Part shown: one piece after another, positions 1,692-24,502 of the stretch | Layout of the letters: the number at the start of each line of letters is the position of its first letter | Numbering within the stretch: the first letter of the stretch is position 1 | Virus record (IMG/VR): IMGVR_UViG_3300047550_005314 | Span: 1 to 26,881 of that record | DNA from: a virus | Strand: one strand, 5' to 3' | DNA length: 26,881 bases | Program-made: the position numbers and the translations under genes | Notes under the pieces: model-generated | The model's input: the letters and a program-made list of their open reading frames with translations, nothing else | Database searches by the model: none | What the model was told of the DNA's origin: nothing

Positions 1692-1702
1692 AATTTTTAT
1701 TT

Positions 1703-2707: not shown

Positions 2708-2724
2708 TATATTATTTGAGTATA

Positions 2725-2729
2725 TACAC
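2725..2729 (-). promoter_or_regulatory. GTGTA motif ahead of the repeat-protein gene
   Basis: CTGTGTATATACTCAAATAA on the minus strand, 17 nt before the ATG at 2707, in the 30-bp gap after the Ig-like protein gene. Confidence 0.4.
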
Positions 2730-2737
2730 AGTTTTTT

Positions 2738-3181: not shown

Positions 3182-3216
3182 AATTAATCAAAAAAATATA
3201 ACTATATAAATTAGTT

Positions 3217-3221
3217 TACAC
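3217..3221 (-). promoter_or_regulatory. GTGTA motif ahead of the Ig-like protein gene
   Basis: ACGTGTAAACTAATTTATA on the minus strand, 35 nt before the ATG at 3181 and about 40 nt after the terminator that ends the capsid operon. This is where a new promoter would be expected. Confidence 0.45.
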
Positions 3222-3259
3222 GTTTAGTGATAATAAATATCACTAAAAAAAAGATTATT

Positions 3260-3299
3260 TAACAAAAAAGAAAGCCCCGAACGAGTCGGGGCTTTCTTT
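3260..3299 (-). terminator. Rho-independent terminator of the capsid operon
   Basis: A perfect 14-bp stem (arms 3267-3280 and 3286-3299, core GCCCCGA/TCGGGGC) with a 5-nt loop. On the minus strand it is followed by a run of T residues (complement of the A run at 3262-3267). It lies 22 bp after the stop of the major capsid gene. It is the only strong GC-rich terminator I found in the window. Confidence 0.93.
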
Positions 3300-3320
3300 A
3301 ATTTTACTTGTTTATTTTTA

Positions 3321-4445: not shown

Positions 4446-4491
4446 AATTTTTATTTTATTTTCTAAATTTTATTTTCTATTTAGCGTTGTA

Positions 4492-5022: not shown

Positions 5023-5062
5023 ATTTTTTATTTATTTGTTAATTTGTTTATTTATTTGTTTA

Positions 5063-5740
5063 TTATTTATTTTCTACTTTGATAGTGTTGCTATTGAAAG
5101 CTTTGGCAAATTTTTGCCTAAGGCTATCTTCAGCAATCGCTCCATTTGGAAGAGCAACCTCTTCAGCCTGCGCCTTTTCAAGCACAACTGCAGCCTCTTG
5201 CTCTTTTTCTTCCTGCTCTGAAGCAATCACTTCAGCAGATTGTTTATTTTCAGATGTTGCACAGCCCTCATCTTTCATTTTTTCTTCTTTAGCTGTTTTT
5301 TTCTCCATCATCATTTTTTTGTTTTTGGATTTAGCAAAAACATTGAAAGCTTTATACCACTTATCAAAAGCTTCCTGATCTAAATTTTTAATTTGTTCAC
5401 CAATTATCTGACGTTCTTCGTCATCTAAAGAAAAATCCTCGTCTAATCCAGACATTCTATTTTGGAAAATTTCTTCGGCTTCACGAGCTTCTGCCTCTAG
5501 CTTAATTTTTTCAAGCTCGGCTTTTAATTGTTCACCGGTTTGTTTTAACTCTTCTAATTGAGCTTCAAGTTCAGCCTTTGTTTTTTCCGCTTCGGCAATA
5601 ACGCTGTCTTTAGCAGCTTGCTCCTCGGTAAATTTTTCGCTAGCTTTTTTAATTTCCTCTTCAAATAAAGCGCGAATATCAGTAGCGCATATCTGTTTTA
5701 AAGAATCGTCATTTAAATCTTGAATAGATTTTATAAGCAT
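5063..5740 (-). CDS. Candidate nested scaffold protein (in-frame internal start)
   Basis: An ATG at 5740, in frame at codon 334 of the protease/scaffold gene, opens a 225-residue product beginning MLIKSIQDLNDDSL. It is preceded by AAGGAAAATAAAAAA, which is both purine-rich and like the A-rich leaders of other genes here. The product would be almost pure coiled coil (about residues 50-110) with a basic/acidic tail. The start falls exactly at the boundary between the acidic linker and the scaffold. The layout matches lambda C/Nu3, where the scaffold is made from an internal start. Expression is inferred, not shown. Confidence 0.5.
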   Translation of the reverse strand: MLIKSIQDLNDDSLKQICATDIRALFEEEIKKASEKFTEEQAAKDSVIAEAEKTKAELEAQLEELKQTGEQLKAELEKIKLEAEAREAEEIFQNRMSGLDEDFSLDDEERQIIGEQIKNLDQEAFDKWYKAFNVFAKSKNKKMMMEKKTAKEEKMKDEGCATSENKQSAEVIASEQEEKEQEAAVVLEKAQAEEVALPNGAIAEDSLRQKFAKAFNSNTIKVENK

Positions 5741-6739
5741 TTTTTTATTTTCCTTTTTTGTTTTTTCTTTTTCAACATTAGCAGCAGCTAAATCATCCGC
5801 GTCTAATTTATTTGAAATTATATTTGTTTCTACAAGTTTTTCATCTAATTGGGAACTTTTTATAGATAAGTCACTCACGTCAGACTCTTCTTTTTCCTCA
5901 ACTTCATTTTCTTCTTTTGATTCTAAATCATTAGGTCCAAAAACCTTAACACCTTTAACGTCGGCTGCTGGATTATTTGTAAAACCTATTCCAAGAGGCA
6001 AAACCTCACCTATTAAATTAATAAATAAAGGCTTACCATCATCATCAAAACCCTTGCCGCCGAAATGCATTAACTTATCTTTCATTTCTGCTACTTCAGC
6101 CTCATCAGAAAGAATTGAAGCCTCGGAAAGATTTAATGACCCCTTAGCTATATTGAAATTTCTAAATCCCATTTCCCAGCTAGTAGAAATACTAAGATAA
6201 GACTCAGAAGACGGATCCGAGGAAGCTTCAAGCTTATCGGCAAATTCTTCATTTACAATTCTCCAAACAAAACCGCTCAAGACAACATTGAATGGATCTT
6301 TTTTATCCTTAACTTCATCCAAAGTTAAAGGCTTATCCGTTCCATATTCGCTAAAGCCAAAGCCAGTTATCAAGCCGGCAACATTTTTTCTCTTATGCTC
6401 TATATTCATCGGCTTGAATTTAAAATTCTCAACGGAAGATAAAGCTACATCTGTAGAAATTACTTGCCCATTTTTATTTGCTCTGTTAACAACAAAAGCA
6501 TTAAACGCAACCCCAATTAAATCATAATTTTTTTCTAAATCAATTGAAGAATCTAGAAAAGGTTTTAAAGAATCAATTCCAGCTTTAGCAATATTTATAT
6601 CAGTTTCTTGCGGCAAGAAAACTCTTATAGGGTCAGATGCAAAAATAGTTTGAAATGGAAAATTTATTTTTTCTGAAGGTCTATACTCTTCTGCTACCAA
6701 ATCTTTTACCCAGATATAAGAATTTTCAAATTTTGGCAT
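5063..6739 (-). CDS. Prohead maturation protease fused to scaffold
   Basis: 558 residues. Residues about 30-270 have the layout of a herpesvirus/phage-type prohead serine protease: a strand-rich N-terminus, the histidine segment MNIEHKRKNVAGLITG (His115) and the serine segment SESYLSISTSWEM (Ser183 or Ser185 as nucleophile candidates). Residues about 275-330 are an acidic linker. Residues about 334-558 are a long Glu/Lys/Ala coiled coil typical of an internal scaffold. The protease would cut scaffold and capsid N-termini during head maturation. An internal ATG at codon 334 may give free scaffold. The gene opens the head operon 38 nt after a GTGTA motif. Which serine is catalytic cannot be settled by eye. 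Confidence 0.82.
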   Translation of the reverse strand: MPKFENSYIWVKDLVAEEYRPSEKINFPFQTIFASDPIRVFLPQETDINIAKAGIDSLKPFLDSSIDLEKNYDLIGVAFNAFVVNRANKNGQVISTDVALSSVENFKFKPMNIEHKRKNVAGLITGFGFSEYGTDKPLTLDEVKDKKDPFNVVLSGFVWRIVNEEFADKLEASSDPSSESYLSISTSWEMGFRNFNIAKGSLNLSEASILSDEAEVAEMKDKLMHFGGKGFDDDGKPLFINLIGEVLPLGIGFTNNPAADVKGVKVFGPNDLESKEENEVEEKEESDVSDLSIKSSQLDEKLVETNIISNKLDADDLAAANVEKEKTKKENKKMLIKSIQDLNDDSLKQICATDIRALFEEEIKKASEKFTEEQAAKDSVIAEAEKTKAELEAQLEELKQTGEQLKAELEKIKLEAEAREAEEIFQNRMSGLDEDFSLDDEERQIIGEQIKNLDQEAFDKWYKAFNVFAKSKNKKMMMEKKTAKEEKMKDEGCATSENKQSAEVIASEQEEKEQEAAVVLEKAQAEEVALPNGAIAEDSLRQKFAKAFNSNTIKVENK

Positions 6740-6777
6740 GATATAAATAATAATTTATTTTTATTGTATTTTAAATT

Positions 6778-6782
6778 TACAC
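6778..6782 (-). promoter_or_regulatory. GTGTA motif ahead of the head operon
   Basis: TTGTGTAAATTTAAAATAC on the minus strand, 38 nt before the ATG at 6739, in the gap between the lysozyme gene and the protease/scaffold gene. Confidence 0.45.
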
Positions 6783-6809
6783 AATTATATAAAAAATGTC
6801 ACAATAATT

Positions 6810-7439
6810 TTATATATTACTACAAGATTCAACTAATAAAGCTTCCGACTCTCTTCTTTCTATTAATCCATCAAGATTTTTACCTCTCCAGATCCTTTTC
6901 ATTTGCCTTATTTCATGAGCTATTTTTTTATAGTCTTTCTTTGGAATCAAGACTCTTATGTTTCTCATTTCTAATCTTTTTTCTCCAACCAAGCTTGTCC
7001 CTCTATTAAAAACTAGGGATACAATAGCCCCATATGCATCCGGACATAAATCAGACAACCCAGGAAACGTTTTTTCTGCTAATTTTGTAAATTTTGTCCA
7101 AGTTAAATTCTCAAAAATCTCTTTAGCTTTTTCCCATTGAATAGTTATTCCGGCAGCTCTAAGCTTCTTAGTATACTCTCTGCCTCTTTCGGAACTTTTT
7201 CCAGAAGCACTTTTGATTAATTCTATTTCTTCTTTTTTAAGAAAGCTAAATATATTAGATAATTCGTCCTCAGAGTAATAAGCGCAATCTATTCCTATTC
7301 CAATTGTCGGACCAGAAGCTCCTCCAGGCCATGTGAACTTAGATAAATATTTTTCATAATAATCTCTGCCACCGCCCACTTCATACTTTAATAATAAATC
7401 AAGCGCTTTTTTAGATGGCTTATCTGAGTTCGTAATCAT
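6810..7439 (-). CDS. Endolysin, pesticin-type lysozyme
   Basis: 209 residues, with no signal peptide. The N-terminal half has KYEVGGGRDYYEKYLSKFTW, then PGGASGPTIGIGID, the signature of pesticin-like muramidases (T4-lysozyme superfamily). Candidate catalytic residues are Glu20, Thr45 and Asp51; the six-residue Thr-Asp spacing equals that of pesticin. The C-terminal half has VSLVFNRGTSLVG and EIRQMKRIW, as in lysozyme helical lobes. It should cut the glycan backbone of peptidoglycan at the end of infection. It overlaps by 20 bp the upstream gene for a two-segment membrane protein and closes the lysis block. With no export signal it needs a holin to reach its substrate. Confidence 0.85.
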   Translation of the reverse strand: MITNSDKPSKKALDLLLKYEVGGGRDYYEKYLSKFTWPGGASGPTIGIGIDCAYYSEDELSNIFSFLKKEEIELIKSASGKSSERGREYTKKLRAAGITIQWEKAKEIFENLTWTKFTKLAEKTFPGLSDLCPDAYGAIVSLVFNRGTSLVGEKRLEMRNIRVLIPKKDYKKIAHEIRQMKRIWRGKNLDGLIERRESEALLVESCSNI

Positions 7440-7842
7440 CTTCTTTTATATTTGTTTCAATAACTGTTACGTTATTTATATTTTCGTTAACACTTTCTAT
7501 CGTTGACGCTGAACTACTTCCATATTTTAAATCTACAACGGCTTGAGCGCCAACATAAGAAGCTATTATGATAGCTAATATCTCAATTGTTTTAGAAAAA
7601 ATAGTAACAAATCCAGCAACGAATTCTGGATTTTTTGGAATAAAAAACATTATTCCAAGACTTGCAAAATAAAAAAAAGCAAGTATAAGAACCGAAGTAA
7701 AAACAATATAAAATTTACTAGAAGCCATATGATTTATGGCTTTCATTCTTTCTACATCTTGAATTGGAGTATTTGGTGGAACTAAGTTTCCACTCAAATA
7801 CGAAACTAGAGAAATTGCCGTATTTTTAATTGCCTCGATCAT
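7420..7842 (-). CDS. Two-segment membrane protein, holin candidate
   Basis: 140 residues. Two hydrophobic helices are visible, about residues 43-68 (FYIVFTSVLILAFFYF and onwards) and 74-103 (ending IIIASYVGAQAVV), with a short loop PKNPE between them. The C-terminal tail of about 35 residues is Ser/Asn-rich then acidic (KEDDYEL). The N-terminal 40 residues are soluble. Its end overlaps the start of the lysozyme gene by 20 bp, so the two are translationally linked. Size and topology suit a class II-like holin, but holins share no sequence signature and the long soluble ends are unusual. A general inner-membrane protein is the alternative. Confidence 0.5.
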   Translation of the reverse strand: MIEAIKNTAISLVSYLSGNLVPPNTPIQDVERMKAINHMASSKFYIVFTSVLILAFFYFASLGIMFFIPKNPEFVAGFVTIFSKTIEILAIIIASYVGAQAVVDLKYGSSSASTIESVNENINNVTVIETNIKEDDYELR

Positions 7843-7850
7843 ATGTAAAT

Positions 7851-8501
7851 CTATTTCTTTTCAATAGAAACTATCGCGACGTATCCAGACAACAATTTAG
7901 CTTCACTTTCTAATTCCTTATAAAGCTCATCAGACAGCCTTCCATCTGTATCATTAAAATCAACCCCAAGAATAGCAATAAAATCCCCCTCAAGGCAAAT
8001 AATTGGAAACATATAAGATCTATGAATGCCCCTATGTAACCAAAAATCTTTAAAAGCATTCTCATGAGTTTCGTCCGTTTCTATAATCACACCAGACTGG
8101 CTTTCATTCATTTCTGTTAGCACCTTGCTAAAAAAAGATATTGGTAAATTTTGTAGCTTCATTAAATCAGTAGAAACACCAGGCTTAGTAGCCTCAAATG
8201 TCGCAGAAAGCTTTTTCATGCTTTTGTTACCTGGATAAAAATTACCACCATTATGAAACTGAGCTATCCAAACTCTATCTAAATCATACTTGCTCTGCAA
8301 AATATTTAGAGTAGAATTAATTTTTTGCTGCATTTCAATTGTTATATTAAAATCATTGCGCCTTTTATTTCTATCCTTTTCTTTTCTTAAAGCCAAAAGA
8401 TACTTAGCGTAAAGCAGAGCAATTGGTCCAACTATTCCAGTTAAAAAAGCAGCTATTACAGTTAAAAATTCAGAATGAAAAAAAAGAGAAGAACCGACCA
8501 T
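7851..8501 (-). CDS. Membrane-anchored GAF-like sensor protein
   Basis: 216 residues. One hydrophobic helix near the N-terminus (about residues 12-36, FLTVIAAFLTGIVGPIALLY) is followed by a basic stretch (RKEKDRNKRR) that fixes the rest in the cytoplasm. Residues about 55-212 resemble a GAF-type domain: DRVWIAQFHNGGNFYPGNKS, then a hydrophobic core, then FIAILGVDFND near the end. GAF domains bind small ligands or mediate dimers. There is no output domain such as a kinase or cyclase. It lies between a 38-residue membrane peptide and the holin candidate, 8 bp from the latter. A role in timing lysis or sensing superinfection is possible but unproven. Confidence 0.6.
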   Translation of the reverse strand: MVGSSLFFHSEFLTVIAAFLTGIVGPIALLYAKYLLALRKEKDRNKRRNDFNITIEMQQKINSTLNILQSKYDLDRVWIAQFHNGGNFYPGNKSMKKLSATFEATKPGVSTDLMKLQNLPISFFSKVLTEMNESQSGVIIETDETHENAFKDFWLHRGIHRSYMFPIICLEGDFIAILGVDFNDTDGRLSDELYKELESEAKLLSGYVAIVSIEKK

Positions 8502-8551
8502 ATAAACCCATTATTAATATATTTTTATTTTATATTAAATACATCTCTTAA

Positions 8552-8668
8552 TTAAAAAAGAGACCCTATAATTAGTCCAGAAATAAAACCAAGAATAAAA
8601 ATAAATTTAGCCGGATTCTCCATTTGCCAGTTATTAAATTTTTGTATTAATTTTTCTAATGTTTTCAT
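8552..8668 (-). CDS. 38-residue single-span membrane peptide
   Basis: A short frame starting MKTLEKLIQKFNNWQMENPA and ending in a hydrophobic run (about residues 22-38, FIFILGFISGLIIGSLF). Its ATG lies 3 bp after the stop of the u-spanin candidate. An AAAGGGGAT purine block is present in the end of that gene, though at a longish distance (about 12 nt). Charged N-terminus, one membrane span at the very C-terminus and a place in the lysis block suggest a lysis accessory such as a pinholin or antiholin. Its length is too short for statistics alone; position, composition and tight spacing carry the call. Confidence 0.55.
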   Translation of the reverse strand: MKTLEKLIQKFNNWQMENPAKFIFILGFISGLIIGSLF

Positions 8669-8671
8669 AAC

Positions 8672-9268
8672 TTAAAGTATCCCCTTTATTCTTAGATAAG
8701 TGGCTCCGCCAATTATTAATAAAAGTATAATTATAATAATATTTCTCTGCAAAATTGCTAAATCTTTTTCGACTAACTTTTTTTGCATTACATTTAGATC
8801 TTTGATCATTTTTTCATTATACTCCATTTGCCTAATAAGCTCTTCGTCAACCTGAGACCTAGCTACATTTAAATTCTCAAAATCTTTTCTTATCTGCTCA
8901 TAAGTTTCTTTGTCTTTCAGTAGGTCTTCATATTCTTTTGAGCTAACTACAACAACAGTATCCGCTTTATATTTTTCAGGAATAATTAATACTCGCTGCT
9001 TATCAATATAAGCAGGAGAACGCTTACTTTGCGAAGTGATTACATCTATAGTTTTTTTATAAACCGGAGGAATATCGATTCTCTTTTTAGGAGGTTTAAC
9101 AAGCCTCGTAGTTTCCGTAGAGTACTTATCGGCTAAATCTATTCTAGCCTGCTCTAAAGAATCCTTAGTAGCATAAACAGTACGAGAAAGAGCCTCTGAC
9201 TGTTTTTCTGTATATACGGTACAAGAAGAAGCTACCAAGCAGCAAACAATTAATAAAAAAAACTTCAT
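8672..9268 (-). CDS. Unimolecular spanin (u-spanin) candidate
   Basis: 198 residues. The N-terminus MKFFLLIVCCLVASSC is a lipoprotein signal with Cys16 in a relaxed lipobox (ASSC). The C-terminus has a single hydrophobic helix (about residues 175-192, NIIIIILLLIIGGATY) followed by a short basic tail. Between them lies a charged region with coiled-coil character (about 120-170). Outer-membrane lipid anchor plus inner-membrane C-terminal anchor is the u-spanin architecture of phage T1 gp11, which fuses the two membranes in the last step of lysis. It heads the lysis block, with a GTGTA motif 9 nt before its start. The lipobox lacks the usual Leu at -3; an ordinary membrane lipoprotein is the alternative. 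Confidence 0.6.
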   Translation of the reverse strand: MKFFLLIVCCLVASSCTVYTEKQSEALSRTVYATKDSLEQARIDLADKYSTETTRLVKPPKKRIDIPPVYKKTIDVITSQSKRSPAYIDKQRVLIIPEKYKADTVVVVSSKEYEDLLKDKETYEQIRKDFENLNVARSQVDEELIRQMEYNEKMIKDLNVMQKKLVEKDLAILQRNIIIIILLLIIGGATYLRIKGIL

Positions 9269-9277
9269 ATTTATATA

Positions 9278-9282
9278 TACAC
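9278..9282 (-). promoter_or_regulatory. GTGTA motif ahead of the lysis block
   Basis: TAGTGTATATATAAATATG on the minus strand, where the last ATG is the start of the u-spanin candidate. Only 9 nt separate core and start, so if this is a promoter the message would be nearly leaderless. Confidence 0.4.
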
Positions 9283-9296
9283 TACAAAAAATTTCT

Positions 9297-11138
9297 CTAA
9301 CCTGGTACCCAAGTTAAAATTCCATTTATTGATTTTAATGTATATGTAGTTGCATCATTTAGAATAGGAGCAAAATCAGACGGACTAAATGTTTTATTTA
9401 TCCAAGCATTATTTGAATTATTTCTACTTAGGAATTGGCCACTCATTGGAGAGTTTATTGAAACATCATGTAATTCATCTAATTCATATCCATTTTGCAC
9501 CTTTACAAAAACTTCTCCATTATTTTGAGCCCTAGTTACAACGCCCAAATAAACCATATGATTTGGAGCATGAGGCTTATTAGCTAAACCATACAATAAA
9601 CTACCAGTTGGCCCAAGCCAAATAGGGTCACCAGCACTAGCAACGCTTACATCGAAATTTTCTAATAAGCCATCTGTAATTACAGTTCCAAAAGCATTAT
9701 TATCTAAACTATCTTGAACAACTAAACCTAATGTTTTTGAAGATGATTGCTCAGAAACATTAGATGCTAATTTAACTAAAATATTTCCGCCTTCAGCTCC
9801 AGCAATATATACGGGTTGACCTTTGTAAATAGTTGACCCATTATAATTTTTAACATTTACTTGAGCCGAGTATACAACGCCGCTAATAATCGTATTATCT
9901 TGTACTTCACCTTGAAGCAGAACGCCAGTTCCGTTAACAGTTGGTCTTTCGCTAAACAAGGCGGAACCAGAAACGTTTAACGCATATGAATTTTGAGATA
10001 TTAATTTTATTCCAGACTTAAAAGTTTTTCTTCCATTTACTATTTGATTTGTATCAACATCAACAAAAAATCCCCTTAGATTTGAAGCTAATCCAGATGA
10101 AGAATAAGGATCTAAATTGAAATCGGTAGTATCAAAATTTATTTCTGAATAACTATAGTCAATGGCAGAATTAGAAAATGCCACACTTGCGCTAAAAGTT
10201 TTTGGTCCAGTAATAGTTTGAGATCCGTTTATGGTCACAACCTCACCTAACATTGCTAGCCCAGACTGGTTACTTTGTATTTGTGAACCAGATAAAATAG
10301 GTCTATGGAAAAATGTTTTTACTCCTGATATATTTTGATTACCCGTTTGAAAAACTATATTTTTAAAATCGCCAGAACCCACAGCTCCGGATACGTTGTA
10401 AACATCTATTTTTTTATTAACCCAAGTATTATTTTCATTAAAAAATAAAACATCACCGCTTGATGGTAAGTTGATACTTACATCATGAAGTAAATCTAAA
10501 TGCGTTCCAGTATTTAAATTTATATATATTGCTCCATCTGCAGCGTCTTTTTTAATACAAAAACCTATAAAAATAGCATGGTTTGGAGCTGTTGGAACTA
10601 TATTCGTTATAGCCCCATCATTAACAGAAGAAAGATATAATTTGTCACCAACGTTAAAAGCATTAGTATTAAATCCGTCCAAAATTCCATTTACTACTAT
10701 TGAGCCGTATTCCCCATTTAAGATATTATCTAATGCTATGCCAATAACATCTGAATCATGAATCGAACTTGAAACAGCTTTTTCTACAATTGGATAAGAC
10801 CCGTCTCCGCCAACAAAAGATACTATACTACCTCTATTTATAGTAGAACCAGATCCATTATAAACTGTTTGAAGCAAGTATTCTGTACTTTGAATTGATG
10901 GCAAATCTTGCCAAATAGTATCATAATTAGTATTAGTATTTTTTACTAAAAATTGACCCATTGATCCACCAGCTGGCACTCCAATACTTGGATCCACCCA
11001 AGCAGTATCATAATTACTATTAGTAGATTTAGCTAAGACTTGACCCTGCGACCCACCAGCTGGGACGCCCAATCCACCCGTAGGAAGTATATCAGTAGGC
11101 TGACGCTCAATTTTAACTATTGAAGCATCATTAATCAT
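9297..11138 (-). CDS. Tail-fibre protein with duplicated domains
   Basis: 613 residues. Residues 24-49 and 53-78 are a direct repeat of GVPAGGSxGQxL with following TNxNYDTxW. A larger unit occurs twice, about 88-240 and 425-580: YNGS, then IxxGxxV, then a G-rich turn, APNH, and LDxLHDVSIN. This unit is familiar from fibre and adhesin proteins of marine and freshwater phages. Between the copies lies a stretch (QTGNQNISGVKTFFHRP and after) shared with the S74 fibre encoded at 11471-12961. It is likely a trimeric, beta-rich receptor-binding or fibre-shaft protein. It starts 3 bp after the upstream small structural gene's stop. Confidence 0.8.
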   Translation of the reverse strand: MINDASIVKIERQPTDILPTGGLGVPAGGSQGQVLAKSTNSNYDTAWVDPSIGVPAGGSMGQFLVKNTNTNYDTIWQDLPSIQSTEYLLQTVYNGSGSTINRGSIVSFVGGDGSYPIVEKAVSSSIHDSDVIGIALDNILNGEYGSIVVNGILDGFNTNAFNVGDKLYLSSVNDGAITNIVPTAPNHAIFIGFCIKKDAADGAIYINLNTGTHLDLLHDVSINLPSSGDVLFFNENNTWVNKKIDVYNVSGAVGSGDFKNIVFQTGNQNISGVKTFFHRPILSGSQIQSNQSGLAMLGEVVTINGSQTITGPKTFSASVAFSNSAIDYSYSEINFDTTDFNLDPYSSSGLASNLRGFFVDVDTNQIVNGRKTFKSGIKLISQNSYALNVSGSALFSERPTVNGTGVLLQGEVQDNTIISGVVYSAQVNVKNYNGSTIYKGQPVYIAGAEGGNILVKLASNVSEQSSSKTLGLVVQDSLDNNAFGTVITDGLLENFDVSVASAGDPIWLGPTGSLLYGLANKPHAPNHMVYLGVVTRAQNNGEVFVKVQNGYELDELHDVSINSPMSGQFLSRNNSNNAWINKTFSPSDFAPILNDATTYTLKSINGILTWVPG

Positions 11139-11141
11139 ATT

Positions 11142-11447
11142 TTAATTTTGTGCGGTAAATCCGCACCAAAACTTTCCATTTCCGCTTGAAATTGCTCTAA
11201 CTTCAGTTACTGGAGTTGTTAGATAAGCAGGAAGAGCGTATCCCGTATTTAATCCGGAAAAAGAATAAAAATCAACCCATCCATTTTCAAAAAATGGGCT
11301 TTTGTATTGAAGAAAAACGCTTCCACTTCCGCTTGCGTAAGCGGTAAATGCCGCGTCTCTGGATCTAGCCATATTAACTGCTTCACCCGTAAATGGCGCT
11401 TGTTGACCGGTTAGCAATAGTTTTGTTTGTATAAAAAAATGATTCAT
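11142..11447 (-). CDS. Small fibre-associated structural protein
   Basis: 101 residues, beta-rich, with no membrane segment. It begins MNHFFIQTKLLLTGQQAPFT and carries YASGSGSVFLQYKSPFF and ends NGKFWCGFTAQN. The pattern (a short strand-rich domain reading out one value per strand pair) recalls small fibre-module proteins of phages but matches no family I can name. It sits between two fibre genes with tiny gaps and has a GTGTA motif 14 nt upstream, so it probably belongs to the fibre set, for example as a fibre-tip or attachment subunit. Confidence 0.6.
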   Translation of the reverse strand: MNHFFIQTKLLLTGQQAPFTGEAVNMARSRDAAFTAYASGSGSVFLQYKSPFFENGWVDFYSFSGLNTGYALPAYLTTPVTEVRAISSGNGKFWCGFTAQN

Positions 11448-11461
11448 ATATTTATATGGGT

Positions 11462-11466
11462 TACAC
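11462..11466 (-). promoter_or_regulatory. GTGTA motif ahead of the small fibre gene
   Basis: AAAGTGTAACCCATATAAAT on the minus strand, 14 nt before the ATG at 11447. It lies just upstream of the end of the S74 fibre gene and could make the distal fibre genes separately controlled. Confidence 0.4.
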
Positions 11467-11470
11467 TTTA

Positions 11471-12961
11471 TTAAGATAAAATTCCGCTTTTTAATCTATT
11501 TAAAGTTCTTCTAGTTAGAGCCATTTCCATGAATTGGCACTCATCGGGTCTAATAGACCAAATTTCTCCAGAGGGGACTATTTTTCCGTCTACATCGAGA
11601 TGTTCTTCCCACTTATCATAACAAAGCATACCTATTTCAAACGCATCTAATCCACGGGCTTGAAACTTCTGATGAATATCTTGAGCTATGTGTCCAATGT
11701 GCCACCTGGCTCCAGATAAGCCTTTTTGAGCAACTGAATCTTTGAATTTATATCTTACATAATTTACTTCTTCCCATGCGTCCAACCAAGTATCTGGAAT
11801 TTCTGATATTTCTGTTTTTAGATTTTCATCGGAAGTTTGTATAGATGTAGTTGAAGCATATACAGTGCTCCAAGCTCTAGTTGCCTGACCCAAAGCTCTT
11901 GTTCCGCTATTTATAGGAGCAAAAAAAGTATTAGTTAATTGGTATGCGGTTGTTCCGGCTGGAAACTGAAAATTTATGTTATCAGTAGCAGCAAATGCTC
12001 CAATCGATAAATTTGCAGAAGAAGTTGCATTTAATAAATTTCCAGAAAATCCTCCTACAAAACTAGAAGCAGAAATTGAATTATTTGATGGATTAACAGT
12101 TATTCCATTAGTCATCAAATCTTTATATCCGGCAGTATTATTAGAAGTAAATAATAAGTAACGATTAGCATTAGCAGTATCTTGCGTTCCATATCCAGAC
12201 ACTACTATATCAGCAGAGCCATCGAACGTTAATCCGTTAATTTTTGCAATAGGATTTTTACCAGAAAGCCTGCTAGCAAAGCTTGCTAATCCATTAAAAT
12301 TATCACATTTTAAAGTTTTATTAATAGGATTATAACTCAAACCCGAATTCTGCTGAAGAAATTTTGAGCCCGACCCAGTTTGCTCTACAAAAGTAATATA
12401 TCTTTCAATACTACTGTTTCCTAAATTGACATATATTGGATTCACAGCCCCACTTACTAAAACCCCAGTTCCCTTAACCTGTAAAGCATTTGTAAAATTT
12501 TTAACTCCCTCAATCGCTTGATTTGCATTTGTATTTACAAGCAAAGCTCCTAAATTACTTACGAGACTATTTACAGAATTACCATCAAGAGAAAAATTAG
12601 TATCTGTAAATTCAACGTCACAATATTGATATGTATTATAATTTGTATCAAAAATTGTATTTCCAGCAAAAGTTTTTTGCGAAGGTATAGATTGATTTGT
12701 AGATAAAGTTACAACTTCCTCTAATTTCGCTAAGCCTTTTCCACTTAACTCTGGTCTAGAAAAAAAATTTTTTACTCCTGATATATTTTGATTACCAGTT
12801 TGATAAACAAATTGATTTGTTGCCAAATCGCTATATTTAAAAGATGATCCAGATAAAGAATTAAGTTGTCCAGTTGAAGCGAAGTATCCCGAACCATATT
12901 GACCAACAAGACCAGAAAAATCTGCATCTATTTGTTTTAATTTTACTTTATTAATACCCAT
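11471..12961 (-). CDS. Tail fibre with C-terminal S74 auto-cleaving chaperone
   Basis: 496 residues. The shaft (about 1-350) is Ser/Asn/Gly/Thr-rich and beta-structured. It includes QTGNQNISGVKNFFSRPELSG, nearly identical to a stretch of the neighbouring fibre. The C-terminus (about 365-496) is an intramolecular chaperone of peptidase family S74: after VYASTTSIQ comes TSDENLKTEI, whose Ser and Lys form the self-cleavage dyad, followed by IGHIAQD and the helical tail. Such domains trimerise fibres and then cut themselves off. It starts 4 bp after the portal gene's stop. The C-terminal assignment is strong; the receptor is not predictable. Confidence 0.87.
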   Translation of the reverse strand: MGINKVKLKQIDADFSGLVGQYGSGYFASTGQLNSLSGSSFKYSDLATNQFVYQTGNQNISGVKNFFSRPELSGKGLAKLEEVVTLSTNQSIPSQKTFAGNTIFDTNYNTYQYCDVEFTDTNFSLDGNSVNSLVSNLGALLVNTNANQAIEGVKNFTNALQVKGTGVLVSGAVNPIYVNLGNSSIERYITFVEQTGSGSKFLQQNSGLSYNPINKTLKCDNFNGLASFASRLSGKNPIAKINGLTFDGSADIVVSGYGTQDTANANRYLLFTSNNTAGYKDLMTNGITVNPSNNSISASSFVGGFSGNLLNATSSANLSIGAFAATDNINFQFPAGTTAYQLTNTFFAPINSGTRALGQATRAWSTVYASTTSIQTSDENLKTEISEIPDTWLDAWEEVNYVRYKFKDSVAQKGLSGARWHIGHIAQDIHQKFQARGLDAFEIGMLCYDKWEEHLDVDGKIVPSGEIWSIRPDECQFMEMALTRRTLNRLKSGILS

Positions 12962-12965
12962 AAAA

Positions 12966-14924
12966 TTATTTTTTACTATGGTATAAAATACTTGCGGATC
13001 TTATATCTATACCATGATTTGAAGCAAGTTCATCTATTTGGCTATAGATTTCTGGATTTGACCTTGACATATCCTGTATATATAAATCAAAAGTTTTATT
13101 CCAGTTTTCTAATTTTTCATTCTGAGCAATTAAAATTGCAATATCAGAAACGATTTCAGCTTGTTGTTTATTTAATTTTTTTATTTTAAATTTAGCTTTA
13201 AGAACTGTTTCTATATTTTTTTCAAGAGACGTTATAGACGCCAAAACTGTCTTCATTTTTTCGCAACTAAATGTTTCTATATTATCTGACTCAACTGACG
13301 CCGATGCTTGCTTGCGTGTTACGAGCTGCTTTCCTCCGCTTCCTATTGGTCTACCAGAATTTCCGGCCGGATTTTTATTTCCTCCTGTTCCAGCTGGTGA
13401 GTTAGGATCCTTAGCTCCACCTATCAATGGCTGGTAATAACCTTTTTCTTTTAATACTTTATATTTTTTTTGAGACTCAATACTTTCTTCAGACGTTGGA
13501 AGTCTACCGCTTTGAAATACATCAAATCCCTCCTCTGGAGTTAAAACTCCAAGTTCTATAAGCCTAGAATAAACTCTACTCATCAATACGTTGTCTTCAA
13601 AGTCAATATCTTCTAATTTTGGAGTAGGAATTTGTTTGAAACCCAGCGCTCTTCCAACCTCCTTCATTTCTGGAATTAAAAAATCTCTTAAGAATTTTTC
13701 ACGACCATATTTTAATCTAGCAAAAAATACTTTTACTTTTATTGAGGTATTTGAAAACTTTTCTTCTCCAAATAAAATGCTATTTAACCCCATTCTTATA
13801 TCGTTATCTAAGATTTCATATTTCTTAGGATCAAGAAGATTGCCGATATCTGGAATAACAAACTTTGCGTTTGTTGTGTAATCTGCAACTAAAACTTTTC
13901 CAACGCTTTGATTCTCAAAAAGCTTTCTCATAGAAGCTAAATTTTGAGCGCTTGGCATTCCAACTTTTTCGTCGCCCATGGTTATCATTAACACGGCTTG
14001 CTGAACAGATCTAGCAATCGCTTGATCTATTTTTTTTAATTCAAGTTTTGAATTTATATCTTCTAGAACCGCAAACCCCATAGGTACAGATAATGGTTCA
14101 TAATTTTGCTTTTTATAAAAAATAGCCACCAATCTATCTTTATCTAATTCTAGCGCAACATTATTAAGACCGGCGGGAATATTCTTTTTTTGAGAATTTG
14201 ACGCTTTGTCCAATAAATTTTTTATTTCTGGTATCTTTTCAGCTATTTGTTTATCTGATTCAGTTCTTGGATTTATAAGAGACTGAAGCTCATAATCATT
14301 CAGCATTTTAACATAAACATTGTCTAAAAAAGAAGATGACGTTACAATATTTATATCAGATGGGTTTAAAATTATATATTTAACTGGAATTTGCTGATCA
14401 TCAGAGGATGAAGCGCCAAACGCTTCTTGTATCTTCATCATGTTTTCTCTACTGAAGTCTGCCCTGAATTTATAGATAAAAATATTTCCACTTCTATAAA
14501 ACTCTCTGTAAAACTGATCTTGCAAATCCCAGCTATTTATCTTTTGAAGCCAAAGGTTAAAAAATTTTCTACTTTGTTCGTTTCCACCCGTTAAATAAAT
14601 GTCAGAGAGACTAAACTCCGTCATTAGATCTATTGTGTTTCTAAAAATTGGAACATTCCAATAAGCTTTTTGACAAAGCACTATCGCATCTTTGGCTGAA
14701 ATATTAGAATTATAATTACCTTTTCCAGTTCCGTAAACAAATGGGACAACCCCTTTTTCTAAATTAGAAAACCTATCAGTTTTTGTAATAGAAGAAGCCA
14801 CATTTCTTCTCATTGATGTTTCACCTGTTCTTTCACAAGTTGACGCAACCGCTATGCTCAAATTATCATCTAATGAAGCCATGACAGCCTCAGGAATTTC
14901 ATTTTTTTTATTTTTTTGAGTCAT
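12966..14924 (-). CDS. Portal protein
   Basis: 652 residues, in the large range for portals. The core shows the usual portal series: KAYWNVPIFRNTIDLMTEF, then REFYRSGNIFIYKF, YIILNPSDINIV, then ELKKIDQAIARSVQQAVLMITMG and LGLN-type helix-rich wing (LNSILFGEEKF). Residues about 520-560 are a Gly/Pro/Asn-rich linker, and the last 100 residues form a helical C-terminal extension that probably faces the capsid interior. It forms the 12-subunit ring through which terminase pumps DNA. It follows the terminase gene after a 110-bp gap with a GTGTA motif and precedes the fibre genes, an unusual neighbour for a portal. Confidence 0.88.
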   Translation of the reverse strand: MTQKNKKNEIPEAVMASLDDNLSIAVASTCERTGETSMRRNVASSITKTDRFSNLEKGVVPFVYGTGKGNYNSNISAKDAIVLCQKAYWNVPIFRNTIDLMTEFSLSDIYLTGGNEQSRKFFNLWLQKINSWDLQDQFYREFYRSGNIFIYKFRADFSRENMMKIQEAFGASSSDDQQIPVKYIILNPSDINIVTSSSFLDNVYVKMLNDYELQSLINPRTESDKQIAEKIPEIKNLLDKASNSQKKNIPAGLNNVALELDKDRLVAIFYKKQNYEPLSVPMGFAVLEDINSKLELKKIDQAIARSVQQAVLMITMGDEKVGMPSAQNLASMRKLFENQSVGKVLVADYTTNAKFVIPDIGNLLDPKKYEILDNDIRMGLNSILFGEEKFSNTSIKVKVFFARLKYGREKFLRDFLIPEMKEVGRALGFKQIPTPKLEDIDFEDNVLMSRVYSRLIELGVLTPEEGFDVFQSGRLPTSEESIESQKKYKVLKEKGYYQPLIGGAKDPNSPAGTGGNKNPAGNSGRPIGSGGKQLVTRKQASASVESDNIETFSCEKMKTVLASITSLEKNIETVLKAKFKIKKLNKQQAEIVSDIAILIAQNEKLENWNKTFDLYIQDMSRSNPEIYSQIDELASNHGIDIRSASILYHSKK

Positions 14925-19055: not shown

Positions 19056-19775
19056 TTATATTTCAAAAACTAAAGTTTTTGCAATTTTAAATATTTTATT
19101 TTTAATTTTTTTAATCTGCTTATAGCCCGGCGATCTATTTTTTTCGCTAGTTTTATACCCCATAGCTTGGGCTGTTTCTATTTCATTTTTATTATCTATG
19201 TAAAGATAAGAATATACCTTCCACTCAACTACTGATAGTTTTTCTTTTATTTTTTTGTGAAAAATATCTATTTTAAAACTATAATCTATATATTTATTTG
19301 TGTCTGGAATATTAATTTCTAACTGAGAAACAGAGCCGTCCTTAGATTCGCTGGCATATTCATGAATGCTTACTGGCATCTTTATATCATAAGCGCTTTT
19401 TTTGCTAGATTCCCACTTTGCGTAAATATTACAAGAGCTATTTTGATTAACATATAGCTCACATAAATTTCCACCTAAGTTATATTTACATTGAGAACAT
19501 GGCTTTGAAAAAGAAGAATAATTATTTCTAATTAAATTTGTTATTTGATTCGTAATAATCGTATTAAGCCAAGGTCTAATTGGTCTAGTATTATCCCACT
19601 GATCCCATTTATTAAAAATATGTAGCCTAATTTTTTGCGATACATCATCAAAATCCATCCACGCTATTGCGGTTAATCTCCACTTACCTCTTCTTTTTAA
19701 TATTTCTTCATCGATTATATATAAACATTCCTCAAATGAGGGTTTTTTATTTGGAAAATCTTCCTCTAAAGTCAT
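19056..19775 (-). CDS. Sigma-70-family-like factor with a cysteine insert
   Basis: 239 residues. Residues about 37-90 match sigma region 2: MDFDDVSQKIRLHIFNKW, then RPIRPWLNTIITNQITNLIRNN. Residues about 178-235 match region 4: a helix pair (LSVVEWKVYSYLYI, then TAQAMGYKTS) and a basic recognition end (KQIKKIKNKIFK). Between them is an insert with Cys93, Cys96, Cys105 and Cys115, likely a zinc site, unusual for this family. It would guide host RNA polymerase to phage promoters. It lies in an operon after a zinc-ribbon protein gene (gap 7 bp) and before the duplicated-domain gene. Similarity to sigma is judged by eye; an unrelated HTH protein is the alternative. Confidence 0.62.
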   Translation of the reverse strand: MTLEEDFPNKKPSFEECLYIIDEEILKRRGKWRLTAIAWMDFDDVSQKIRLHIFNKWDQWDNTRPIRPWLNTIITNQITNLIRNNYSSFSKPCSQCKYNLGGNLCELYVNQNSSCNIYAKWESSKKSAYDIKMPVSIHEYASESKDGSVSQLEINIPDTNKYIDYSFKIDIFHKKIKEKLSVVEWKVYSYLYIDNKNEIETAQAMGYKTSEKNRSPGYKQIKKIKNKIFKIAKTLVFEI

Positions 19776-20342: not shown

Positions 20343-20379
20343 ATGATTGCAAATAATCTATTTTTTACTCCAAAAACTC

Positions 20380-20385
20380 TATAAT
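20380..20385 (+). promoter_or_regulatory. TATAAT -10-like box for the metallopeptidase gene
   Basis: TATAAT followed 21 nt later by the ATG at 20407. No good -35 hexamer at 16-18 bp spacing is visible. Confidence 0.4.
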
Positions 20386-20386
20386 G

Positions 20387-20404
20387 TATGTAATATATTA
20401 CATA
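20387..20404. promoter_or_regulatory. Perfect 18-bp palindrome, operator candidate
   Basis: TATGTAATATATTACATA is fully self-complementary. It starts one base after the TATAAT box and ends 2 bp before the ATG of the metallopeptidase gene, so a bound dimer would block transcription start. Confidence 0.5.
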
Positions 20405-20406
20405 AA

Positions 20407-21054
20407 ATGAAAATAGAATATATTTCAAAAAAATATAAAATAGAAAAATTTATAGAACGCGTAACCTCGCACCTAAGAGAATATAATGGAAGAATAATAT
20501 TTAAAAACCCTACGTTAAATTCAAATTCATCTGACGGCGAATTTTTAGAATACAATATGACAATAAAATGTATTTTGAATACCTCTTCAACCTATTGGAT
20601 AGGAGTACTTGCTCATGAATACGCTCATTTTCTTCAATGTATTAGCGAAAATAAATACTGGACAGATTTTCAAAAAAAAGTTGCAGATATAAATAATTTT
20701 GACAATATCTTTAAAAGAGGAAAAAACGCCGAGTTATTAAATAATAAAAAAAGATTAAATCTTTCTTCCTGCATAATAAAAATGGAGCTAGACTGTGATA
20801 AGGCGGCCATAAAATTAATAAATAAATATAAACTTCCAGTTGATAAAAAAGAATACCGATCAAAAGCTAATATAGTGCTGTATAAATATTTATATTGGGG
20901 AGAATACGGAGTTTGGCCGAGTATAACTGATAAAAAAACCGGAAAAACTTCAGACTGGAAAACATTAGGCTTAAGCAAGTTTATCCACGAAGATGGCTAT
21001 AAAAGCGCAGGCGATATACCTAGAAAATTATTTAATATATTTCAAGAAAATTAA
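20407..21054 (+). CDS. HExxH zinc metallopeptidase-like protein
   Basis: 215 residues from the ATG at 20407; a TTG 60 bp earlier is in frame but lies upstream of the -10-like box. The zinc motif HEYAH (residues 70-74) sits in IGVLAHEYAHFLQ, with a second helix MELDCDKAAIKLI (about 126-138) supplying a plausible third ligand, in the gluzincin manner. There is no signal peptide. The C-terminus is basic (DKKTGKTSDWKTLGLSKF). It is one of only two plus-strand genes and meets the glycosyltransferase gene tail-to-tail with a 7-bp gap. Peptidase substrate unknown; could cut a host protein in the cytoplasm. Confidence 0.68.
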   Translation: MKIEYISKKYKIEKFIERVTSHLREYNGRIIFKNPTLNSNSSDGEFLEYNMTIKCILNTSSTYWIGVLAHEYAHFLQCISENKYWTDFQKKVADINNFDNIFKRGKNAELLNNKKRLNLSSCIIKMELDCDKAAIKLINKYKLPVDKKEYRSKANIVLYKYLYWGEYGVWPSITDKKTGKTSDWKTLGLSKFIHEDGYKSAGDIPRKLFNIFQEN

Positions 21055-21061
21055 TTTGATT

Positions 21062-21799
21062 TTAATCCCTTTCCCAAGCAAAATGCTTAAATGAAGAAGC
21101 TAGTTCGCTAATATAAGAATTTCCTTCTATAATATTTATATTTGCCGTATTTAAAGAAACGCCAATACTATAACCTTCTCCGTAACCTAAAACGTGTTGC
21201 TCCCGTTCGATGTCTTTATTTTCGCAAAATTGTTGTAAGTCCTTCCAAACCGAAAGAAAATTAGAAATTTTTTCTGGCACTTCTTTTATTACTAAAAAAC
21301 TTTCTTGGATTAAAAGCGAACTTTCAAGCTTATAGTTTCTATTAACGCAATGTTGCTCAAATTCCTTGCCATAAGGAACTCTTGGAGTTAAGCCTTTCAA
21401 GAAATGTTGTATGGAACAATCTGCTGGATACCTCCATATAACTTGAGGATAGGCTCCATTGTCTATTTTATCACTATCAAAGTCGATCAATCTTTGCTTG
21501 AGTTGTTCTCTAAGGCAGTGATCAGCATCGATTAAAATTACCGTATTTTCATACTTGAAGCCTTCTTCAAATATCAAACGTTTGTCATGGAAAGAGAACA
21601 GACGCTCCAAATAAGGAGCTGTTTTATATTCGTAGTACTTAACTATTACGTTTTTTGTACCCCAAAATTGACTTGGTTCATCAGTTAAGACTAGAAAATT
21701 TACATCTATTACCTCACTAATTTGTTTAATTAATTTTTTTGTTTTAGCGTGATAGTTTGAGCCAACAGAACAAATACCTATGATAAATTTTTTTTTCAT
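21062..21799 (-). CDS. GT-A-like glycosyltransferase
   Basis: 245 residues, soluble. It opens with a Rossmann-like strand (KKFIIGICSVGSNYH) and has VILIDADHC, whose DAD (91-93) fits a metal- and nucleotide-sugar-binding DxD motif. Downstream are short motifs, IQESFLVIKE and EREQHVLGYGEG, with acidic residues suitable for a catalytic base. It is the last of three genes joined by ATGA overlaps (here 21796-21799), so it probably acts in the same sugar pathway as the fucosyltransferase and FkbM-type protein. The family is not certain; the DxD context and neighbours carry the call. Confidence 0.6.
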   Translation of the reverse strand: MKKKFIIGICSVGSNYHAKTKKLIKQISEVIDVNFLVLTDEPSQFWGTKNVIVKYYEYKTAPYLERLFSFHDKRLIFEEGFKYENTVILIDADHCLREQLKQRLIDFDSDKIDNGAYPQVIWRYPADCSIQHFLKGLTPRVPYGKEFEQHCVNRNYKLESSLLIQESFLVIKEVPEKISNFLSVWKDLQQFCENKDIEREQHVLGYGEGYSIGVSLNTANINIIEGNSYISELASSFKHFAWERD

Positions 21800-22611
21800 A
21801 CAACTCTCCAGTTTTCACAAGTTAAATCGTCATAAGTTGATGTGTTTCTAGTTGACTCGTAATATACTTGGCTGAACCAATTTGTTTTTGGGTCTGGCAT
21901 TATTACATTTGAGTTATTAGCCATCCAAGCTCCCCACCAACTGAAGGTGCTGTTTGCTGTAATATGATTGCGAAACAAAGACATCAAATAAAGCTCCAAT
22001 AAATCGTTTCTTTCTTCGATGAAAGTTTTGTTAGGCAAGAAATTAAAATTAACTTTGCACCATTCTATATCGTCGGAAAATATAACAAAATGTTTATTTC
22101 TTCCGACAATCTCGGTTGCTCTTTCGTAGTAATTCAAGCCTAAAATAATTAACTCCCTTGCAGTAGCGTAATCCCCTCTTCTTACATGAAGAACGCAGCT
22201 ATCAGAATCAATGAGATGTCTATATTTATTCTGTATATATTCTTTGTGCTCGTCTTTTAGTTCAAACAAATTTAATACTTCGTTTCTACAGTCTTTGAAA
22301 TACTTTTCGGTTTGAAAAAACCCGTCAATTAGTAATAGCTTATCAGTCTTAGGTAAAGGTCTAAAACCTACATCTCCAAATCCCCAAAATTCATATCCAC
22401 TCTTGACTGCTTCTTGAAAATCAACCCACGGCAATTCATGTTTAAACAAAACACGCGAAGAGTCATTTGGATCGTGCCTATTGAACCTAAATGCGCAATT
22501 GTCAGGAAATGCATAATTCGTGTTGTTGTGTTTAGCAACTGAAACAGTAGTAGCTATTTGAAACAAACTATTAGCTAGCCCCCAACCGCCAAGTCGTTCA
22601 AAAATAATCAT
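21796..22611 (-). CDS. GT11-type alpha-1,2-fucosyltransferase
   Basis: 271 residues from the ATG at 22611, which overlaps the previous stop as ATGA; an in-frame TTG at 22665 is less likely. It shows the GT11 motifs: an N-terminal GGWGLANSLFQIA (cf. GGLGNQMFQ), LHVRRGDY (Arg-rich donor-binding motif, about 141-148), HFVIFSDD and HITANSTFSWWGAWMA. It transfers fucose from GDP-fucose to a galactose-type acceptor. All motifs are intact. With an FkbM-type methyltransferase before it and a glycosyltransferase after, it likely builds a methylated, fucosylated glycan on the virion or host surface. The glycine motif is altered (GGWGLAN). Confidence 0.85.
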   Translation of the reverse strand: MIIFERLGGWGLANSLFQIATTVSVAKHNNTNYAFPDNCAFRFNRHDPNDSSRVLFKHELPWVDFQEAVKSGYEFWGFGDVGFRPLPKTDKLLLIDGFFQTEKYFKDCRNEVLNLFELKDEHKEYIQNKYRHLIDSDSCVLHVRRGDYATARELIILGLNYYERATEIVGRNKHFVIFSDDIEWCKVNFNFLPNKTFIEERNDLLELYLMSLFRNHITANSTFSWWGAWMANNSNVIMPDPKTNWFSQVYYESTRNTSTYDDLTCENWRVV

Positions 22612-23198
22612 ATCTTCAAAGTCAATATATGATTTGGCATTCCAGATAGCCACAGGCCGCCCCAATTATACATTGATTCCAGTTTACTCTTGACTTCCTT
22701 TTCAAGGAAGCTTGCACCAGTTCTATAAACATTATTTAAATCATCATCTTGATGACCCCAAGCTTCAAAAATAAGCGTTTTAATACTTACTTTTGAAAAA
22801 TCAATAGAGTTAACTATTTCATAGTCTAATCCCTCAGTATCAATTTGAAGCTTTTCCACTTCTTGCGCATTTAAATCTTTACATAGATCATTAAAAGAAA
22901 TAGATTCAACATCAATTTCTTCAAGTGGGGTCATGTGAGATTTGCGTTTAATTAAAGATGAATGACCGGATTCATTATATATATATAATTTAGTTAATTC
23001 ATTTTTAAGTGAAATCGCTTTATTACAAATAATAACTTCATGCCTTTGTTTAATTTTTTGATAATTATTTTCAAGCTCATTTATTAATTTGAAATTAGGT
23101 TCGATTAACACTATCTTAGACGACTCCGTTAATGATTCAATATCTCTTTGGAAATCATCATTTCCAATATTTGCTCCGATTTGTATATATGTTTTCAT
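22608..23198 (-). CDS. FkbM-type SAM methyltransferase
   Basis: 196 residues. SAM-binding motif I is YIQIGANIGND (Gly8, Gly12), followed by IVLIEPN and by KLQIDTEGLDYEIV, the hallmark of FkbM-type methyltransferases. The end contains the motif IFEAWGH. It methylates a hydroxyl group, in other systems on sugars. It leads the three-gene sugar cassette and overlaps the fucosyltransferase start (ATGA). The gap before it is only 36 bp after the PhoH stop, without a GTGTA core (a looser AGTGATTG is seen), so the cassette may be read through from phoH. Confidence 0.83.
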   Translation of the reverse strand: MKTYIQIGANIGNDDFQRDIESLTESSKIVLIEPNFKLINELENNYQKIKQRHEVIICNKAISLKNELTKLYIYNESGHSSLIKRKSHMTPLEEIDVESISFNDLCKDLNAQEVEKLQIDTEGLDYEIVNSIDFSKVSIKTLIFEAWGHQDDDLNNVYRTGASFLEKEVKSKLESMYNWGGLWLSGMPNHILTLKI

Positions 23199-23234
23199 AA
23201 ATTTAAATATAATTCAATCACTTTTAATAAAACT

Positions 23235-24074
23235 CTATTCAAACATTGGCTCTTTTCTTTCCAATTCTTTATTATCAGGTTTTTTAATCAACCCAGTTTT
23301 TTCCATTACAAATCTAAGTAATCCAGATCTAACAATATCAGAATATTCCCTCAACTCAAAGCAATGTATGCCAAAATTACGACTTTCCTCATCATCAAAT
23401 AGGTCAAACATTTTACGGAAACCGGATTTTGCCCCAATATCGTTTTGATTTACAGAATCGCCTATAAAAAATATACGGGTAAATTCGCCACATCTAGTCA
23501 AAACAAGAAATAGGTCATCCCATGTCATGGATGATGCTTCATCCACTATAACAGCCTTACAGTTCCAAGAACGACCTCTCACAAAACCAACCGGGTGACA
23601 ATTTATCCTATTATCCTTCTTTAATTTCGCAATATCACATTCGGGCAGCATCTCTTCTAATTTATCGAATAAAATAGCATTATATGGAGCCATTTTCTCC
23701 TCACTAGTTCCAGGAATAAATCCAATTTTTCCTGTAGTAGATGATTCCACCGGATTTCTTATAAAGATAATTTCATCTACCTTTTTAGCATTTAACAGTT
23801 TTAATGAAGACATCACAGCTAAATACGATTTAGAAGATCCATATAATCCATCTATAAATACGCATTTTGTATTTTTCGCAGCGGCAATTTCAAAAATTTT
23901 CTTTTGTTTTTCTGTTAGATCTGATCTTTCTTTAATATTTAAATTAAAGTTAATCTTTGGACGCTGGCTTACATAAATAGATAAATCTTTTTTTTCAATT
24001 TGCTCAGACTTGTCTTTTTCACTTTTTGTAATTTGGTTTTTATTTAGCGCTGTTTTATTTTTATTTTTTGACAT
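23235..24074 (-). CDS. phoH: PhoH-like P-loop ATPase
   Basis: 279 residues. After a 50-residue Lys/Asn-rich N-terminus comes the ATPase: Walker A GLYGSSKS (76-83), FIRNPVE, a G-rich turn GFIPGTSEEKM, RGRSW, Walker B AVIVDEASSM (about 174-183) and FIGDSVNQND. This is the standard order for the PhoH family, which is common in phages and has RNA-helicase-like parts; its role in infection is unsettled. Ser replaces Gly in the P-loop. The ATG lies 29 nt after a GTGTA motif in the region shared with the divergent small gene at 24191. Confidence 0.9.
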   Translation of the reverse strand: MSKNKNKTALNKNQITKSEKDKSEQIEKKDLSIYVSQRPKINFNLNIKERSDLTEKQKKIFEIAAAKNTKCVFIDGLYGSSKSYLAVMSSLKLLNAKKVDEIIFIRNPVESSTTGKIGFIPGTSEEKMAPYNAILFDKLEEMLPECDIAKLKKDNRINCHPVGFVRGRSWNCKAVIVDEASSMTWDDLFLVLTRCGEFTRIFFIGDSVNQNDIGAKSGFRKMFDLFDDEESRNFGIHCFELREYSDIVRSGLLRFVMEKTGLIKKPDNKELERKEPMFE

Positions 24075-24190: not shown

Positions 24191-24502
24191 ATGAAGATTT
24201 TTATTAGCTTGTCGTCAATTGCAGATAACCTAGGAGATAATTTTAATTTATCTTCTAATGGTGGAATAATTTCTCCATCATCCGCAACAAGAGCCGAATT
24301 ACTTAATGGCATTCAAGCAGAGGTAGACGAATCAGCTTCTACTATTACTATCACGTCTCAGCTCCTAAATAATATTTTTGAAACAAAATCTATAGATAAG
24401 ACAGCCGAAAACTGTATAGATTTAAACCTTGGCGTACAAGCTCTAAAGCTTTCCGATTACCAGGGAAAAATAGTTACTCCATCAACTTTAGAAATTGAAT
24501 AA
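24191..24502 (+). CDS. Small virion-type protein, paralogue of the repeat protein N-terminus
   Basis: 103 residues, beta-rich, no membrane segment. Residues 1-57 match the N-terminal domain of the 334-residue protein encoded at 1703-2707: the pattern L-G-x-x-F, then PSSATRAELLNG, then DESASTITITSQ aligns with the same order there. The C-terminal 45 residues (CIDLNLGVQALKLSDY and after) are unique. It stands alone on the plus strand among minus-strand genes, 22 nt after its own GTGTA motif. Sharing a domain with an appendage-type protein suggests a small structural or capping protein. Confidence 0.65.
   Translation: MKIFISLSSIADNLGDNFNLSSNGGIISPSSATRAELLNGIQAEVDESASTITITSQLLNNIFETKSIDKTAENCIDLNLGVQALKLSDYQGKIVTPSTLEIE

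Follow-up and report, generated by a model that had tools for sequence, protein, structure and literature searches.

Enzymes of glycosyltransferase family GT11 are alpha-1,2-fucosyltransferases, and clusters containing GT11 and further glycosyltransferases, often in overlapping genes, occur in the cyanophages S-8S56, Bellamy, S-PRM1, ACG-2014f, DSL-LC02 and S-SCSM1. The end of GT11 is overlapped by a GT6 gene in S-8S56, Bellamy and S-PRM1; ACG-2014f has a gene annotated GT6 slightly downstream of GT11, and several cyanophages have an epimerase gene beside it. DSL-LC02 has an FkbM gene near GT11; FkbM enzymes carry out hydroxyl methylation, often on sugars or natural products. An excerpt of the S-SCSM1 paper lists a GDP-L-fucose synthase, a GDP-mannose-3,5-epimerase and an alpha-1,2-fucosyltransferase (PMC9602691). 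According to an excerpt of PMC3961637, GT6 of Bacteroides ovatus forms A-antigen-like products from fucosylated acceptors, and GT6 had been recorded earlier in two cyanophages. A variable, glycosyltransferase-rich region is described in the excerpted text of PMC7029224, for phages studied by metagenome mining, as the pelagimyophage host recognition cluster, a large island with a mean length of 44.6 kb that lies between VrlC and gp14, with tail fibres. Glycosylation of the capsid and tail of mycobacteriophage virions is mentioned in part of PMC12619734, which cites Freeman 2023. Among the papers searched, none joined phage genome, fucosyltransferase and glycosyltransferase family 11, and none joined FkbM, glycosyltransferase, phoH and freshwater phages.

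The locus described here lies in IMG/VR record IMGVR_UViG_3300047550_005314, which was analysed over its whole length of 26,881 bases and is called the window below. The record is probably a phage genome fragment, and most of the relatives compared are fragments too. It carries a cassette of three intact, linked genes, two of which belong to recognized families (Table 1). Three intact genes joined by ATGA overlaps had been described in an earlier note on this DNA, and this was confirmed in full: all lie on the minus strand with the ends given there, and both joints, FkbM to GT11 and GT11 to GTx, are ATGA stop/start overlaps. In its overlapping glycosyltransferase genes the cassette resembles the cyanophage clusters, and in its FkbM gene DSL-LC02; it differs in having GTx where S-8S56, Bellamy and S-PRM1 have GT6, and the window has no epimerase. 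The cyanophage GT11 proteins share 31–34% identity with that of the window among the matches listed (best 30 of 102 records), no Synechococcus or Prochlorococcus phage is named among the matches of the window terminase (Microcystis phage MaeS matches at 23%), and the cyanophage terminases are unrelated to it at the sensitivity of the search.

Table 1. Features of the cassette and its surroundings in the window.
Feature	Position	Strand	Remarks
Opposed gene, metallopeptidase-like, other flank	20347..21054	+	HEYAH motif; no Pfam family
Variable slot	21055..23234		Runs from phoH to the opposed gene
GTx, probable GT-A-type glycosyltransferase	21062..21799	-	245 aa; no known family; joined to GT11 by an ATGA overlap
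GT11-family glycosyltransferase (alpha-1,2-fucosyltransferase type)	21796..22611	-	271 aa; ATGA overlap with FkbM gene
FkbM-family methyltransferase	22608..23198	-	196 aa; first cassette gene
phoH-like gene, conserved flank	23235..24074	-	Pfam PhoH, 125.4 bits

The labels methyltransferase, fucosyltransferase and glycosyltransferase, which had been proposed for the three products, fared unequally. The FkbM protein scored above the cut-off with both Pfam Methyltransf_21 (PF05050; 41.4 bits, cut-off 22.7) and NCBIfam TIGR01444 (63.4 bits, cut-off 37.7), and it contains QIGANIG and DTEGLD stretches; no match to it was found in 50,697 phage records at the limits used. The GT11 protein likewise exceeded the cut-off of Pfam Glyco_transf_11 (70.3 bits, cut-off 23.9, residues 102–238), and residues 1–270 matched the glycosyltransferase group phrog_2644 (E 1.4e-50), which is categorized as 'moron, auxiliary metabolic gene and host takeover'. 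It has HVRRGDY at 142 and STFSWW at 221, of which the first fits HxRRxDY, which we take to be a fucosyltransferase motif. The fucosyltransferase label is a family assignment. The open reading frame list begins this gene at a TTG at 22665; the ATG at 22611 was preferred because it forms the overlap and because the relatives start there. A structure model of GT11 was unusable (pLDDT 34.3). Matches to GT11 were present in 102 of the 50,697 phage records, all at below 60% identity and mostly in Synechococcus phages, while the viral collection held, besides the known contigs, one further relative at 26% identity.

For GTx, the glycosyltransferase label comes from weak fold evidence. The protein had no family in Pfam even at E 10 and no PHROG or NCBIfam match, and none in the phage records at the limits used; comparison with PDB sequences gave no significant hit, and a profile search against solved structures returned nothing at E 10. 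A DAD at 91–93 is invariant among GTx homologues. A low-confidence model (pLDDT 58.8) had its best Foldseek matches among GT-A enzymes, all eight rows with E ≤ 0.001 being UGGT catalytic domains, and alignment of the same model with VIA-align gave GalNAc-T2 as the best match (Z 8.7), with blood-group (GT6) and other glycosyltransferases at about 8 and many ties. These results suggest that GTx is probably a GT-A-type glycosyltransferase. Relatives in the viral collection were confined to the known contigs, and 395 bacterial genomes yielded a single weak match with an internal stop inside it. Because GT6 comes after GT11 in several cyanophages, GT6 was considered as a candidate family for GTx, but Pfam and profile comparison gave it no support. 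With E values allowed up to 10, none of the four GTx members matched Pfam Glyco_transf_6 (PF03414), a profile that does find GT6 in P-SSM2 and S-8S56. Alignment of GTx with cyanophage GT6 by hhalign gave a probability of 3.9% and covered only 32–101, around the DxD, and two single proteins without a GT6 label scored equally well or better in the same comparison.

The cassette order is kept in three related phage contigs, two of which (L010 and L016) have all three genes, while the third (L002, identical with L034 and L130) starts inside GT11 and includes GTx. Identities to the window homologues are 68–70% for FkbM (from L010 and L016), 65% for GT11 and 62–67% for GTx. Gene coordinates place both ATGA joints again in L010 and L016, and in L002 the one that it contains. 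A GT2-type glycosyltransferase gene, also overlapping, sits ahead of the cassette in L010 and L016. Between these two contigs, which hold the closest pair of copies, dN/dS was 0.18 for FkbM, 0.22 for GT11, 0.18 for GTx and 0.20 for GT2; between either contig and the window, synonymous sites are close to saturation. Since the homologues recur in order, the ATGA joints recur and dN/dS lies at 0.18–0.22, the cassette is not a chance arrangement. The G+C content is 0.328 in the cassette and 0.327 in the window. The genes could also be passengers in transit that bring the phage nothing, and their patchy presence, with the nearest relative lacking the cassette, would agree with this. The open frames, the conserved overlaps, the dN/dS values of the closest pair and the sugar genes that dominate the same slot in close relatives (below) argue otherwise, and we regard it as very unlikely.

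The position of the cassette was surveyed in relatives of the window terminase, 119 of which were found in the viral collection and 80 kept. Window genes were mapped on the relatives' loci, the stretch from phoH to the HEYAH gene was extracted, and the slots were deduplicated by identical sequence. Relatives whose terminase is at least about 88% identical to that of the window were taken as the close clade; locus L084, which has no terminase match of its own, was counted with it through L040 on the same contig (92%). This clade comprised 19 distinct slots in relatives and, with the window, 20, and slot length in the close relatives ranged from 7 bases to 5.9 kb. Five slots were under 150 bases (7–133), and 13 of the 15 occupied ones, window included, contained one or more sugar-enzyme genes. 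The families seen were GT2, GT11, GT25, GT34, GT10, sugar-binding DXD, HtrL_YibB, FkbM or CmcI methyltransferase and UDP-galactopyranose mutase. The two exceptions (L026 and L027) each hold a single, related minus-strand gene with no Pfam match. The scan with Pfam covered 30 slot open reading frames, 25 from the close clade and five from three distant-clade slots; the slot genes of L016 and L027 were identified from their likeness to those of L010 and L026, respectively. The cassette is therefore exchangeable glycan cargo, as the slot is swapped between relatives and mostly filled with sugar enzymes, the cassette being one among many fillings of this site. We hold with high confidence that the genes are real and co-linear, that two of the three belong to their families, and that the slot exists and has its contents swapped. 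Like the pelagimyophage cluster described in the excerpt of PMC7029224, the slot is variable and rich in glycosyltransferases; it differs in being a compact single slot and in running from phoH to a metallopeptidase-like gene. GT10-type fucosyltransferase domains, a second fucosyltransferase family at the slot, were seen at the C-terminal end of large slot proteins in L032 (1190–3130) and L033 (2632–4782). The HEYAH gene flanks the slot in close as well as distant relatives, at identities down to 28%.

A distant clade with terminase identity of about 59–60% had 15 distinct slots, eight of them short and seven occupied. None of the five open reading frames scanned there (three slots) was a sugar enzyme; they were LRR, fibre-like or GLEYA/PA14 proteins or had no family.

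The nearest relative, locus L003 on contig G001 (63.6 kb), has a terminase over 99% identical to that of the window and a slot of 44 bases. DNA identity between the two is mostly 92–99% outside the slot. Near it, identity falls to 80–88% over the 3' portion of phoH that was aligned and to 93% in the bin with the opposed gene, and low-identity bins also occur away from the slot (e.g., 11501–12000 at 0.888). An almost empty slot combined with high identity elsewhere indicates that the cassette was gained or lost recently, plausibly through exchange by recombination in the slot flanks, a route that we infer from these comparisons. Away from its slot, G001 has a glycan gene run about 11 kb long, all on one strand (1395–12362, locus L112), which includes GLF (UDP-galactopyranose mutase), a CmcI-type methyltransferase, RgpF, DUF5672, an epimerase, WcbI, some genes without a family and a sub-threshold FUT8-like match. 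Just upstream of this run, on the same strand and separated by 36 bases, lies a gene for a Pro-Thr repeat protein (12399–13649), the N-terminal region of which resembles, by eye, that of the Pro-Thr protein of the window. The latter is encoded at 1703–2707 on the minus strand, close to structural genes, and its N-terminal region is also 35% identical over 57 aa (BLAST) to a short protein beside phoH (24191–24502, plus strand). Nine tRNA genes were found in 40 kb of G001 (L112 and L113) and none in the window.

The earlier note had read the three genes as coordinated synthesis of a methylated, fucosylated glycan. That they form one unit of glycan-modifying enzymes stands; the enzymes can cap a glycan and not build one, since all three are soluble and no initiating transferase, flippase or nucleotide-sugar gene accompanies them. 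A Pfam scan of 17 further window proteins gave no match to glycosyltransferase or sugar-methyltransferase families. None of the cassette proteins has a hydrophobic segment, their highest 19-residue means being 0.73–0.98 vs. 2.1–2.7 in three other window proteins. Gtr-type systems consist of a membrane flippase and a membrane transferase beside a polyprenyl-phosphate transferase. Serotype conversion of this type was rejected, as the cassette lacks hydrophobic segments and such families; this speaks against a Gtr-type system and not against the capping of lipid-linked units.

The following course, with its reactions, donor, acceptor, virion target and exchange route, is what we infer from the genes. 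Inside the infected cell, the soluble cassette enzymes would act on a glycan already present. GT11 would attach L-fucose, probably in alpha-1,2 linkage to a sugar of the galactose type, and GTx would attach another sugar; O-methylation of the product by the FkbM enzyme would then give a particular cap. The glycan may sit on virion proteins, with the Pro-Thr-rich proteins of the structural region as candidates, and related phages would alter the cap as the cassette is gained, lost or exchanged between the conserved flanking genes. GDP-fucose would be supplied by the host or by genes outside the window fragment. A search for gmd and fcl had been suggested earlier, and when run it recovered no epimerase or GDP-mannose dehydratase family member in the 26.9-kb window fragment; enzymes of the GDP-mannose dehydratase family are present in distant relatives. 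Among 20 related records, five have one NAD-sugar epimerase/dehydratase each (four distant-clade, one near), and a second such enzyme, as a separate fcl, was seen in none of the 20. The distant-clade example that was classified (L114, 8952–9998) was closest to gmd with 377.8 bits, below the cut-off of 415, and the near one (G001, 6780–7775) was closest to Fcl with 132 bits, far below the cut-off of 500.

As target of the cap, virion proteins appear slightly likelier than the host surface, with a probability of roughly 0.45. We lean this way because in the nearest relative the glycan gene run lies just downstream of a Pro-Thr repeat protein gene with which it shares its strand. Fibre-like proteins in the distant-clade slots, among them a protein with GLEYA and PA14 domains of sugar-binding type, were also counted for it. 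Against it, an initiating protein glycosyltransferase was not recognized in the window, and a comparable phage island is read as host O-chain modification in the excerpt of PMC7029224. The likeness to mycobacteriophage virion glycosylation is one of possible function. The same enzymes could instead work in the cytoplasm on a host surface polysaccharide, capping it while it is a capsule precursor or a lipid-linked O-unit, which would alter the receptor and exclude competing phages. Such a role has been published for pelagimyophage and cyanophage glycosyltransferases (PMC7029224 and PMC9602691, as excerpted), and GT11 also occurs in bacteria: of 395 genomes drawn from the class to which a metagenome-assembled genome (MAG) labelled Flavobacteriaceae belongs, 99 gave matches, so that acceptors of this kind are plausible in bacteria. 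The cassette, however, includes no flippase, polyprenyl-phosphate transferase or membrane transferase, and its proteins lack hydrophobic segments; we consider this alternative a serious one, somewhat short of even odds. To our knowledge neither GT11 nor FkbM is a DNA-modifying family, which argues against the enzymes glycosylating modified bases of the phage DNA. That reading is the least probable of those considered, although phage glycosyltransferases acting on DNA exist (PMC12619734, in part).

Relatives of the window terminase at 38–39% were found in three MAG contigs, titled Flavobacteriaceae, Verrucomicrobiales and 'uncultured bacterium'. A search for GT11 in these three MAGs gave none. 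Naming a host from them was rejected, as the terminases are too distant and binning error is too likely. A host search with the window protein 3321–4445, taken as the capsid protein from its place, gave no match.

Phage-encoded GT11 and variable glycosyltransferase-rich regions were already known; the compact swapped slot and GTx may be the new parts. By analogy, the slot might be a phage 'glycotype' locus with cassettes as its alleles, in which GT11 and GTx would make a cap like that of cyanophage GT11 and GT6 and GTx would represent a new glycosyltransferase family, a proposal that we make tentatively and consider rather doubtful. If true, near-identical phages would bear, or impose on the host, different sugar coats, as with bacterial O-antigen loci. 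If virion proteins are capped, one swappable locus would change the surface sugars while the structural proteins stay, giving a testable account of the abundance of glycosyltransferases in environmental phages. Public sequence data already hold the control pairs, with the cassette, an empty slot or another cassette on closely related genomes. Elsewhere in the window, the product of 19056–19775 (minus strand) matched Sigma-70 region 2 at 26.1 bits (cut-off 24) and may be a sigma factor of the phage itself.
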